This document shows positions 22,986 to 24,526 of a stretch of DNA of 64,000 nt, in pieces. How positions within the stretch are numbered: the stretch's first letter is position 1; each line of letters opens with the position of its first letter. The notes beneath the pieces were generated by a model. The model saw only the letters and a program-made list of their open reading frames with translations. It had not been told where the DNA came from and searched no databases. The DNA comes from Amycolatopsis albispora (GTDB lineage Bacteria > Actinomycetota > Actinomycetes > Mycobacteriales > Pseudonocardiaceae): contig NZ_CP015163.1 in the NCBI RefSeq assembly GCF_003312875.1, positions 3,472,001 through 3,536,000 on the forward strand, given 5' to 3'. Both the position numbers and the translations under genes were made by a program.

Positions 22986-23025
22986 ATGTCACGAATGTGG
23001 CTTTCGAGACGTTTGGCGTCTCGAA
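22986..23025. repeat. Intergenic palindrome, copy 2 (split by IS110 element)
   Basis: The first arm runs 22986-23011 and contains GAATGTGGCTTTC; the inner partner CGTCTCGAA lies at 23017-23025 after a 5-nt loop. The outer partner TTCGTGACAT is found at 24321-24330, on the other side of the IS110 element. Joining 23025-23032 to 24321 restores a palindrome whose middle reads GAATGAAGCTTTCG. Confidence 0.8.
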
Positions 23026-23038
23026 TGAAGCTTCTATG

Positions 23039-24061
23039 TCAAGTGAGGTCGGTGGTGAGTGCTCGGTAGATGGTGTTGGCGAGGTGGCGTTTGAGGGCGC
23101 GGAGGGCGGCTTTGGTGGTGGCGTGGGGGTGGTGTTTGGTCCAGTTGTCGCGGTAGGTGCGGGCGGGTGGGTGGTGGGTGAGTTGGGTGATGGCGATGCG
23201 GTGGAGGCAGGTGTTGAGTTGGCGGTTGCCGCCGCGGTTGAGGCGGTAGTGGGGTTTGTTGGCTGTCCAGGTGGGGATGGGTGCGGTGCCGGTGTGCATG
23301 GCGTAGGCGGCGGGTGAGCGGAAGCGGGTGATGCCGGCGGTTTCGCCGATGATTTTCGCGGCGAGGACGGTGCTGACGCCGGTGATGGCCAGCAGGGTGG
23401 GGGCCAGGGGCTGGACTCGGGTGCGGAGTTGGTGTTCGAGCTGGGTGATCTGCTGGGTCAGGGTGGTGATCTCGGTGAGCAGGTCCAGGGCGAGGTCGCG
23501 GCGGACGCTGGCGGGCAGGGTGGACAGGGCGGTGGTGAGGGTGTGCTGGGCGCGGGGCCCGGTCAGGCGGGGGTGGGTCTGGTCCAGGGCGGGGTCGAGG
23601 TCGTGCAGGTGCCAGCGCAGTTGGTTGATGCTGGCGGTGCGGCGGTTGACCAGGTGTTCGCGCCGGTCGGAGAGCAGGCGCAGGTCCAGGGCGGTCTGGT
23701 CCAGGTGTGCGGTGGGCAGGTCGGGTTCGCGCAGGGCGGCGCGGGCGATGGCCAGGGCGTCGATCGGGTCGGATTTACCGCGGGTGCGGGCGCTGGCGCG
23801 GCAGGCGGCCATCAGTTTGGGTGGGACCCAGACCACGGTGGCGCCGGTGCCGATCAGGGTGCGGACCAGTCGCCCGGCCACGCCGCGGCCGTCTTCGACC
23901 GCCCAGCGCGGCCCGGTGCCGAACTGGGTGGCCCAGGACCGCAGCCGCAGCAGCCCGTCGGGGTCGGCGGTCACGGTTTTCTGCCCCAGGCGGCGGCCGG
24001 TCTGATCGACCGCGACCGCGGTGTGGCTGGACTTGTGCGGATCGATGCCAATGACCACCAT
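23039..24061 (-). CDS. IS110-family DEDD transposase (bridge-RNA recombinase class)
   Basis: 340-residue transposase with an N-terminal RuvC-like DEDD domain (VVIGIDPHKSSHTAVAVD at the start, AVEDGRGVAGRLV near residue 57, TRGKSDPIDALAIARA near 95) and a C-terminal Tnp_20 domain (ITGVSTVLAAKIIGETAG near 230, followed by AYAMHTGTAPIPTWT), where the nucleophilic serine is expected. A coiled-coil segment lies between them (TLTQQITQLEHQLRTRVQPL). The ATG at 24061 begins at the universal MVVIGIDPHK. All catalytic acids are present, so it looks active. The stop codon lies only about 8 bp from the element end. Confidence 0.93.
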   Translation of the reverse strand: MVVIGIDPHKSSHTAVAVDQTGRRLGQKTVTADPDGLLRLRSWATQFGTGPRWAVEDGRGVAGRLVRTLIGTGATVVWVPPKLMAACRASARTRGKSDPIDALAIARAALREPDLPTAHLDQTALDLRLLSDRREHLVNRRTASINQLRWHLHDLDPALDQTHPRLTGPRAQHTLTTALSTLPASVRRDLALDLLTEITTLTQQITQLEHQLRTRVQPLAPTLLAITGVSTVLAAKIIGETAGITRFRSPAAYAMHTGTAPIPTWTANKPHYRLNRGGNRQLNTCLHRIAITQLTHHPPARTYRDNWTKHHPHATTKAALRALKRHLANTIYRALTTDLT

Positions 24062-24107
24062 GGACACCGCGTGTGTTCCTTCCCTAGCCGGAGAACATGC
24101 GTCTTTT

Positions 24108-24264
24108 CCGGGCCGGGCTGGTCGGACACACCTCAGTCGAGGTTGATGGCGTATGCCCACGCTTCTATCAAGTCAGGCCAGCCAGGCCCGGACCTTGATC
24201 ACGCTGGACAATTCGTTCGCAAGCCAGCAACGGCAGTGGCTTTCAGAGTCACCACGCGATCAAG
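24108..24264 (-). ncRNA. Predicted bridge RNA of the IS110 element
   Basis: In transposase orientation two stem-loops follow each other, 2 nt apart. The first is closed by 7 bp (24194-24200 with 24258-24264) and has a 57-nt loop; the second is closed by 14 bp with one mismatch (24108-24121 with 24178-24191) and has a 56-nt loop. The first loop holds GAAAGC (from 24236-24244), identical to the left target flank plus core, and a 7-of-9 match (24211-24219) to the right flank. The second loop holds a near copy of the element's right end (24161-24173, GCTTCTAT plus CAAGT) and CTCAGT of its left end (24132-24137). This is the order target-loop then donor-loop known for IS621. RNA ends are not determined. 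Confidence 0.6.
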
Positions 24265-24526
24265 ACCGGACCCTAACCGCCCACCACGAGCGGCCACACC
24301 AACCCTGACACTGAGTGGCTTTCGTGACATCGGAGCTAGGCCTCGGCTGCACGGAGCACTGCGACCGGCGAGGCAGGCACAGATCGGCTGTGTGGGCGTG
24401 GGCTCGCGAGCCTGTGGGGCTTAGGCGTCGGAGACCGAGTGTCAACGTCGGGGGCGGGGGTGCGCCGCGCGACGGGAGTGCGCAAAGCGCGCGGGTGCGT
24501 ACGAAGCGGCGGGCTTGGCGCGGCGA

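Follow-up and report, generated by a model that had tools for sequence, protein, structure and literature searches.

The closest described systems are insertion sequences that carry their own guide RNA. In IS621 of Escherichia coli, the RNA lies in the left end of the element and presents a left and a right target guide (LTG, RTG) followed by a left and a right donor guide (LDG, RDG), with a stem-loop between the guides and a left target guide of 9 nt; the promoter boxes lie at opposite ends, -35 at the right and -10 at the left, and handshake pairing and insertion into palindromic repeats belong to the same picture, as given in the parts of the reports used here (PMC11208160, PMC11208158). 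ISEc21 and ISMch6 carry a seekRNA in an upstream non-coding region, where a bottom-strand match to the target precedes a top-strand match, with natural redirection between related elements and no target duplication (excerpts of PMC11187229). ISPpu9, ISPpu10, ISPa11, ISRm19 and ISRm22 insert specifically into highly repeated extragenic palindromes (excerpts of PMC1525189). Apart from the extragenic position of the repeats, these features have an observed or presumed likeness at the locus reported here. Unlike ISEc21, which enters IS3-family transposase genes, and ISMch6, which is one redirected relative (PMC11187229), the set around our element holds 15 distinct left guides, and the palindrome-seeking elements have other hosts and other repeats (PMC1525189), whereas the family entered here is actinobacterial and REP-like by its copy number.

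The window analysed is a stretch of 64,000 nucleotides from Amycolatopsis albispora. We consider it very probable that positions 24101-24279, on the minus strand, encode a bridge RNA, whose expression and activity we infer, and that it belongs to an insertion sequence of the IS110 group. By sequence comparison, the first loop holds the guides for the entered site, and the second holds those that match the two ends of the element itself, in the manner of IS621. The RNA is of a known kind, naturally retargeted, and its variant features are a core that is not fully shared and a threonine at the nucleophile position of the enzyme.

An IS110-group element in a REP-like palindrome

The element and its site comprise the following features.

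22992-23005, minus: second target site, still uninterrupted, in the opposite arm of the palindrome (exact GAAAGCCACATTCG)
23021-23026, minus: right half of the target, ATTCGA in the window copy and ATTCGT in the other seven (copy junctions)
23027-24314, minus: whole IS110-family element, 1288 bp (junctions of eight copies and 647 uninterrupted sites)
23037-23042, minus: TTGACA at the right end, overlapping the stop codon, -35 box of the presumed junction promoter (joined-end pattern in 21 of 22 groups)
23039-24061, minus: recombinase gene, 340 aa (PF01548 and PF02371 above cut-off; D7, E56, D98 and D101 kept)
23264-23266, minus: codon ACA, Thr266, aligned to the catalytic Ser241 of IS621 (profile alignment to 8wt6 and 9t56)
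24302-24307, minus: CAGGGT at the left end, -10-like partner in the presumed junction promoter (joined-end pattern)
24315-24323, minus: left half of the target, GAAAGCCAC (copy junctions)

The 9.12-Mb single-contig genome holds eight near-identical copies of the element, which fall into four sequence types of two copies each; the window copy differs from the others by 0-2 bases in 1288. The junctions are the same in all eight, ...CGAAAGCCAC/TCAGTGTCAGGG...TTGACATAGAAGCTTC/ATTCG..., and together with the empty sites they define the true target as GAAAGCCAC/ATTCG. The preliminary description had recognised an IS110 element, which the gene with its PF01548 and PF02371 domains and the common junctions of the copies bear out, but both of the edges that its coordinates seem to imply move by 3 nt: the left flank continues through CAC, and the right end, which had seemed to lie at ATAGAAGC, continues through TTC. 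The eight copies and the uninterrupted repeats rule out that the cut falls between GAAAGC and CAC, and equally that the element ends on the right at the palindrome's second site (22992-23005). The left end reaches 253 nt before the gene and the right end 12 nt past its stop codon; a long left end with a non-coding RNA region and a short right end are as expected of the IS110 group and not of IS1111.

Uninterrupted, the site GAAAGCCACATTCG occurs 647 times in the genome (328 forward, 319 reverse), while the reversed control sequence occurs 0 times. Exact 14-mer sites within the window lie at 22992, 51583, 51614, 51705 and 51736. An inverted partner lies at most 60 nt upstream in 24 of the first 30 sites fetched, partners being counted separately, and the sites are the arms of palindromes of the form TGTCACGAATGTGGCTTTCGAGACG-N5-CGTCTCGAAAGCCACATTCGTGACA or its GGGGCG variant. 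The target is therefore REP-like, that is, a short palindrome in many copies. The window copy occupies the rarer form, in which both arms carry the site in the same direction; in some repeats (L068/L069, L086/L087 and the window copy) the inner 13-mer is inverted in one arm, so that the arms are co-directional. Across the genus, the site is present at least once in 11 of 80 genomes, the own genome included, and at least 10 times in four of them (647 in the own genome, 135 in G026, 49 in G057 and 10 in G053), the other 76 having 0-5. An apparent strand preference of the repeats beyond about 1.6 Mb was dropped, as it had been read from 100 of the 647 places, a subset seemingly bounded separately on each strand. 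At one related locus (L006), about 48 unrelated bases split the target palindrome just upstream of the element, as judged by eye. A literature search on palindromic repeats of Amycolatopsis returned nothing relevant.

The integrated element contains no consensus sigma-70 promoter. When its ends are joined, as they would be in a circle, they give TTGACA-N17-CAnnnT in 21 of 22 bridge-RNA groups, the exception being the G168 group (L018), and this pattern resembles the junction promoter reported for IS621 in the part of that report used here (PMC11208160).

A two-loop RNA whose guides change with their sites

Within the left end, the predicted RNA is laid out as follows, given in its own 5' to 3' direction.

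24101-24279, minus: bridge RNA as modelled, both loops (fold z -2.66; covariance model R1, 172.8 bits, a match by construction as the model was built from the window RNA and 16 relatives)
24255-24272, minus: target-binding loop, 5' arm of the stem (compensatory changes in helices 2 and 3)
24236-24244, minus: putative left target guide GAAAGCCAC (9/9 identical to the left flank; covaries with the flanks in relatives)
24215-24220, minus: putative right target guide GCGAAC (fixed-register pairing with the right flank, 17 representatives, 0/20,000 permutations)
24212-24214, minus: putative handshake triplet GAA, pairing with the element's last 3 nt, TTC (right-end match in 41 of 43 scored copies)
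24185-24205, minus: target-binding loop, 3' arm of the stem (compensatory-change analysis)
24172-24184, minus: donor-binding loop, 5' arm of the stem (helix 5)
24161-24168, minus: putative left donor guide ATAGAAGC (8/8 letters identical to the right end; co-changes in relatives)
24132-24137, minus: putative right donor guide ACTGAG (reverse complement of left-end CTCAGT, 6/6; permutation test not significant)
24116-24126, minus: donor-binding loop, 3' arm of the stem (helix 5)

Two stem-loops lie where they had been placed before, and the order LTG, RTG, LDG, RDG is indeed that of IS621. The large loops also exist, although each is not open but consists of a guide, an inner hairpin and a guide, and for the first the minimum-energy fold puts 49 nt, rather than 57, inside the outer helix. 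Position by position, most of the proposed matches hold: 24244-24236 reads GAAAGCCAC, identical in 9/9 letters to the left flank at 24323-24315 (chance expectation of the exact 9-mer in a 49-nt loop about 1.6e-4, by arithmetic); in the second loop, ACTTGATAGAAGC (24173-24161) is similar to the right end ACTTGACATAGAAGC, and the left-end CTCAGT has its reverse complement at 24137-24132. The proposed right-flank match stands in part. Read by eye, 24219-24211 (CGAACGAAT) agrees in 7/9 letters with the reverse complement of CTTCATTCG, but three of its letters, GAA, pair with the element's own end TTC rather than with the target. The right target guide proper forms 4/6 Watson-Crick pairs with the right flank of the window copy, with a mismatch adjoining the cut, and gains one further pair, a G-U, in the other seven copies. 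An alternative register, ACGAAT (24216-24211), fits better when taken alone but was set aside, as it includes the triplet, which stays constant in the window clade while the targets change.

Extent matters for the fold. The wider segment suggested earlier for folding, 24062-24320, is unremarkable (z -1.19, with 25/200 shuffles folding as well), whereas the fold trimmed to the RNA, 24101-24279, reaches z -2.66 with 1/200 shuffles as good. No Rfam family reached its threshold in the window. The consensus of 17 RNAs has a long stem that encloses the LTG, an inner hairpin and the RTG; another stem encloses the donor guides. Of its 36 pairs, 13 are changed on both sides (1/500 shuffles as high); paired cells amount to 97.9% against 88.7% in shuffles, and the covariation score is 0.385 against 0.211 in shuffles (0/500 as high) and at most 0.115 when the structure is slid. 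One of the five fold measures, further pair types, did not exceed the shuffles (84/500 as high). Most of the compensatory pairs belong to the first stem, and a single one to the second outer stem, where the letters hardly change. Together, these changes indicate two stem-loops conserved by compensatory change, as is characteristic of a bridge RNA.

In the own genome, R1 finds eight places, one before each of the eight transposase genes (150 of 9566 first-look candidates scored). Of 54 further loci, a few of them near-copies of each other or of training rows, it finds the RNA in 36 at E <=0.001; all matches are on the transposase strand, at protein identities of 30-71%, and the remaining 18 of the 54 gave no match at E 0.001. 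All but one of the 36 lie 16-139 nt before the gene, and the match in L016 lies 1386 nt before it; there, by eye, the stretch between bridge RNA and transposase ends in another transposase gene.

To follow guides and sites together, we drew homologous loci from named contigs, the genus (80 genomes), the family (390 genomes) and further copies, 100 loci in total with a transposase match. As 5 candidates per genome were scored in the family survey and at most 26 in the genus survey, copy counts are lower bounds. Junctions were tabulated for 46 loci with recognised ends, chosen after the sequences had been viewed and hence not a blind set, duplicates and loci with unclear ends being left out; these copies carry 22 distinct RNAs with 15 distinct left guides. 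The left guide of L017 is CACGGTGCC. Fixed-register scoring covered 43 of the 46, since the LTG pattern had no match in L096, L038 and L039. When the distance from guide to cut may vary by 0-2 nt, the LTG matches at least 8/10 letters in 37 of the 43 scored copies and fewer in six (L015, L095, L113, L115, L097 and L098). Among 17 representatives, it scores 8.18 of 10 against its own flank and 4.66 against swapped flanks, and the RTG 4.71 against 2.02 of 6, each with 0/20,000 permutations as high. A right-flank test without the fixed register (n=20) was weak, at 357/20,000. For left guides taken from the model columns alone, the 90 nt preceding the RNA contain a match at p<0.05 in 17 of 28 non-window loci and no significant match in the other 11, one opposite-strand match (L100) having been dropped. 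From the co-changes of guides and flanks, the first loop is predicted to pair with both strands of the target, left guide then right guide, in the manner of a bridge RNA. Two copies in G070 (L134, L135) exceed their sibling L034 in length by about 1.4 kb, owing to an interrupted transposase gene; their left guides still match, at 9/10 each, and the right guide of L135 is poor, with 2/6 Watson-Crick pairs.

For the donor side, the right end co-changes with the RNA (0/20,000 permutations, n=20), and the left donor guide is accordingly the part predicted to pair with the right end. The corresponding test of the left end against the RDG was not significant (2067/20,000, n=20) in a set where the left end hardly varies. 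By eye, guide and left end have changed jointly in L038 (GCCTTAGT with ACTAAGGC) and in L039 (GCGTCAAT with ATTGACGC). By eye, the site entered in L038 and L101 encodes AAYFA/KEMGR, much as an IS3-family orfA does at its end, and other insertion sequences may therefore be among the targets of these elements.

Two other readings of the structure must be measured against these data. The folded leader could act solely as a 5' UTR structure that controls translation of the transposase, with the protein alone choosing the site. The structure does lie directly upstream of the start codon, and the transposase of ISPpu9, itself an insertion sequence in REP sequences, is reported to be regulated by two small RNAs and a 5' UTR structure of its mRNA, according to the part of that study used here (PMC8450116). 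Such a regulator, however, has no need of loop letters that change together with the flanks (0/20,000 permutations) or with the right end, and we regard this explanation as very unlikely. Even less credible is that the flank match is an artefact of the palindromic repeat, which any RNA with a related hairpin would show. The site does lie in a palindrome, and its recurring TTCG yields the second, out-of-register RTG match ACGAAT, but relatives in different sites, among them start codons and other repeats, keep the register with changed bases. The identification as a bridge RNA, as the preliminary description had proposed, is thus the reading that the flank-matched guides and the two-loop fold kept in homologues point to. 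Copies with unchanged loops at unrelated sites, or homologues without the fold, would have spoken against it; instead, all eight genome copies sit at matching sites and the fold is kept.

Handshake, core and a threonine at the nucleophile position

The triplet that follows the RTG is GAA in the window clade and GTT in a sister clade, and in 41 of 43 copies it is the reverse complement of the last three bases of the element (TTC and AAC, respectively; exceptions L106 and L098). It scores 2.88 of 3 against its own end and 1.95 against swapped ends (0/20,000 permutations), and it corresponds to the handshake guides described for IS621 in the passages used here (PMC11208158). At the core, the junctions and the 647 uninterrupted sites show that the target offers AC and the donor TC, with one C in common. 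In the sister copy L118, the target offers GG and the donor AC, no core base being shared with the donor end AAC; entry between GGG and NNATG without loss or gain is evident from all 19 orthologous loci that lack the insertion (L145-L163, the best among the genomes searched). A shared core dinucleotide of the IS621 type is therefore absent: IS621 prefers CT in target and donor (PMC11208158), whereas our element shares one C. Since the target and donor cores differ, the RNA must choose between them, and unlike in IS621 its core-side triplet matches the donor and not the target.

Spacing is a further difference. TCAAGGGCGCC precedes the right half at all 33 places found in G168 and all 22 in G281, with a site pattern that allowed 0-2 extra bases, and the guide ends one base before the cut in 5 of 6 G168 copies and 4 of 4 G281 copies. 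The left spacing is thus loose by 0-2 nt among relatives, while the right register is fixed.

We propose the following course of events. Excision would make a circle, whose joined ends (TTGACA-N17-CAGGGT) would form the promoter from which the RNA is made. On a recombinase tetramer carrying the RNA, LTG and RTG would pair with one arm of the palindromic repeat and LDG and RDG with the circle junction. Strands would be exchanged after the C of GAAAGCCAC, and the GAA beside the RTG would then pair with the incoming donor end TTC as the handshake. Target and donor would have no need of a common two-base core here: the window element shares one C, and the sister insertion L118 none. The enzyme would either work with Thr266 or receive help in trans.

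The enzyme itself is clearly of the IS110 family in its domains. The DEDD_Tnp_IS110 domain (PF01548) scores 1.2e-28 and the C-terminal Transposase_20 domain (PF02371) 3.4e-14, with 53.4 bits against a cut-off of 21.3, and its four acidic residues recur among 120 homologues: D7 in all 118 and E56 in all 119 that cover the respective position, D98 and D101 in 119 of the 120. Close relatives in public records are named IS110 family transposase, and one (P0044) IS110 family RNA-guided transposase, which shows that the kind is already recognised. A single-protein search found only ISCro4 below E 0.01, and the match to IS621 is remote, at E 2.2e-15 with an 11-sequence profile. In the profile of 11 relatives, position 266 aligns with the serine of RYESG in IS621 (8wt6) and ISCro4 (9t56); as the chain numbering runs two ahead of that in the paper (D11, D102, D105), the aligned serine is Ser241. 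In IS621, Ser241 forms the 5'-phosphoserine link and a composite active site forms between protomers, as stated in the portions of the report used here (PMC11208158). The window enzyme has Thr in this column, with Ala next to it, and the Thr is found in all eight copies. The nucleophilic serine conserved in the family is, by this alignment, replaced, and IS621 with its Ser differs here from our element. Thr266 is a specific reason to doubt that the RNA of the window copy works, one that the preliminary description did not mention.

Over 99 covered loci (of 100, L027 being uncovered and some genomes counted twice, for example L014 and L032), the nucleophile column holds Ser in 86, Thr in 11 and Ala in 2 (L095, L113); the Thr loci are the eight genome copies, L022, L046 and L094. 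A broader alignment was built from the best 120 of 7980 homologous proteins and 14 loci, and in its 131 proteins longer than 300 aa the column reads Ser in 104, Thr in 26 and Ala in 1. A Cys in P0082 and P0093 in the first alignment became Ser in the multiple alignment. On a FastTree tree the column takes eight parsimony steps, Thr arose more than once, and one clade of 13 proteins with 74-99% identity is all Thr, while the nearest siblings of the window enzyme (P0002-P0005, 83-84% identical) carry Ser. Literature searches on IS110 with a threonine nucleophile, within a limited set of papers, on serine recombinases with threonine and on bridge recombinases returned nothing relevant, and the word threonine is absent from the main text of Durrant et al.

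Does this lineage still move by itself? The RNA could be a bridge RNA by descent in a lineage that is dead or dependent on a helper, with Thr266 unable to attack DNA and the copies moved in trans by a serine relative that has since been lost. The prevalence of Ser among the aligned loci and in the nearest siblings would fit this, as would the Ala version in G274, whose two copies, 99.8% identical, each occupy a site of their own, from which it follows that spread does not prove self-sufficiency. Against it, no relative of more than 32% identity was found in the single-contig genome beside the eight Thr copies, the four types of two copies suggest that movement continued after Thr had been fixed, and Thr, by parsimony, has more than one origin and is retained through the 13-member clade. 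A dead or helped lineage therefore seems to us unlikely, though a serious contender, and we lean modestly towards Thr266 itself acting as the nucleophile.

A sister clade at start codons

A group of relatives has taken the same type of RNA to a different kind of site. In a tree of 36 proteins, 19 of them without a targeting label, the eight repeat-targeting and nine start-codon-targeting rows fall on opposite sides of one branch (97/95). All 13 sister copies that were read (L036, L117-L121, L035, L037, L114-L116, L097 and L098) end exactly 2 nt before an ATG or GTG, and in all 13 a TAnnnT lies 6-8 nt before the start codon in the left flank. On reading, the protein starts at these sites look like those of ordinary host genes. 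In 4 of the 13 upstream regions, TGTCRGTG is also found 5-9 nt before TAnnnT, a PafBC-like promoter: the LexA-independent DNA-damage promoter is given as tTGTCRgtg-8 nt-TannnT in the part of the source used here (PMC5656591), and the letters of the PafBC motif were not found in PMC11804915 and PMC6789036. At its right end, the sister element brings AGGAGCAAC (AGGAGCCAC in L098), which looks like a ribosome site.

The sister clade thus targets genes that seem to be leaderless, entering them between the -10 box and the start codon. We infer that its elements enter leaderless promoters, would be transcribed from them and would hand the gene a ribosome site. A literature search on IS110 and leaderless genes returned nothing relevant. 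IS900 of Mycobacterium avium subsp. paratuberculosis also belongs to the IS110 family. On its other strand, the target motif CATGNNNNNNTCTCCTT holds ATG and AAGGAGA, and hence a gene start, which gives the gene-start sites of the sister clade a precedent (excerpts of PMC8141618). Unlike the IS900 motif, the sister sites combine a -10 box with a start codon at a distance of 6-8 nt, and the window element's own clade does not target start codons.

Taken as a whole, the picture would be that of a serine nucleophile repeatedly replaced by Thr in lineages that still move, through a phosphothreonine link, without a shared core and with a triplet matching the donor, and of a sister clade in which the same RNA scaffold has been redirected to where leaderless genes have their -10 box and start codon, which brings the element under a host promoter and provides the gene with a ribosome site. 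For this combination as one statement, we put the chances at slightly under even.

Its parts bear on the biology of the family in different ways. The natural series of 22 distinct related bridge RNAs, with guides and sites changing jointly, shows which positions of the RNA set target, donor and handshake, and what latitude natural elements have in spacing and core match. Should enzymes with Thr266 prove active, serine would not be a strict requirement in this family. And if the sister elements capture leaderless promoters, this would explain how an insertion at a start codon can leave the gene unharmed while the element profits from it.
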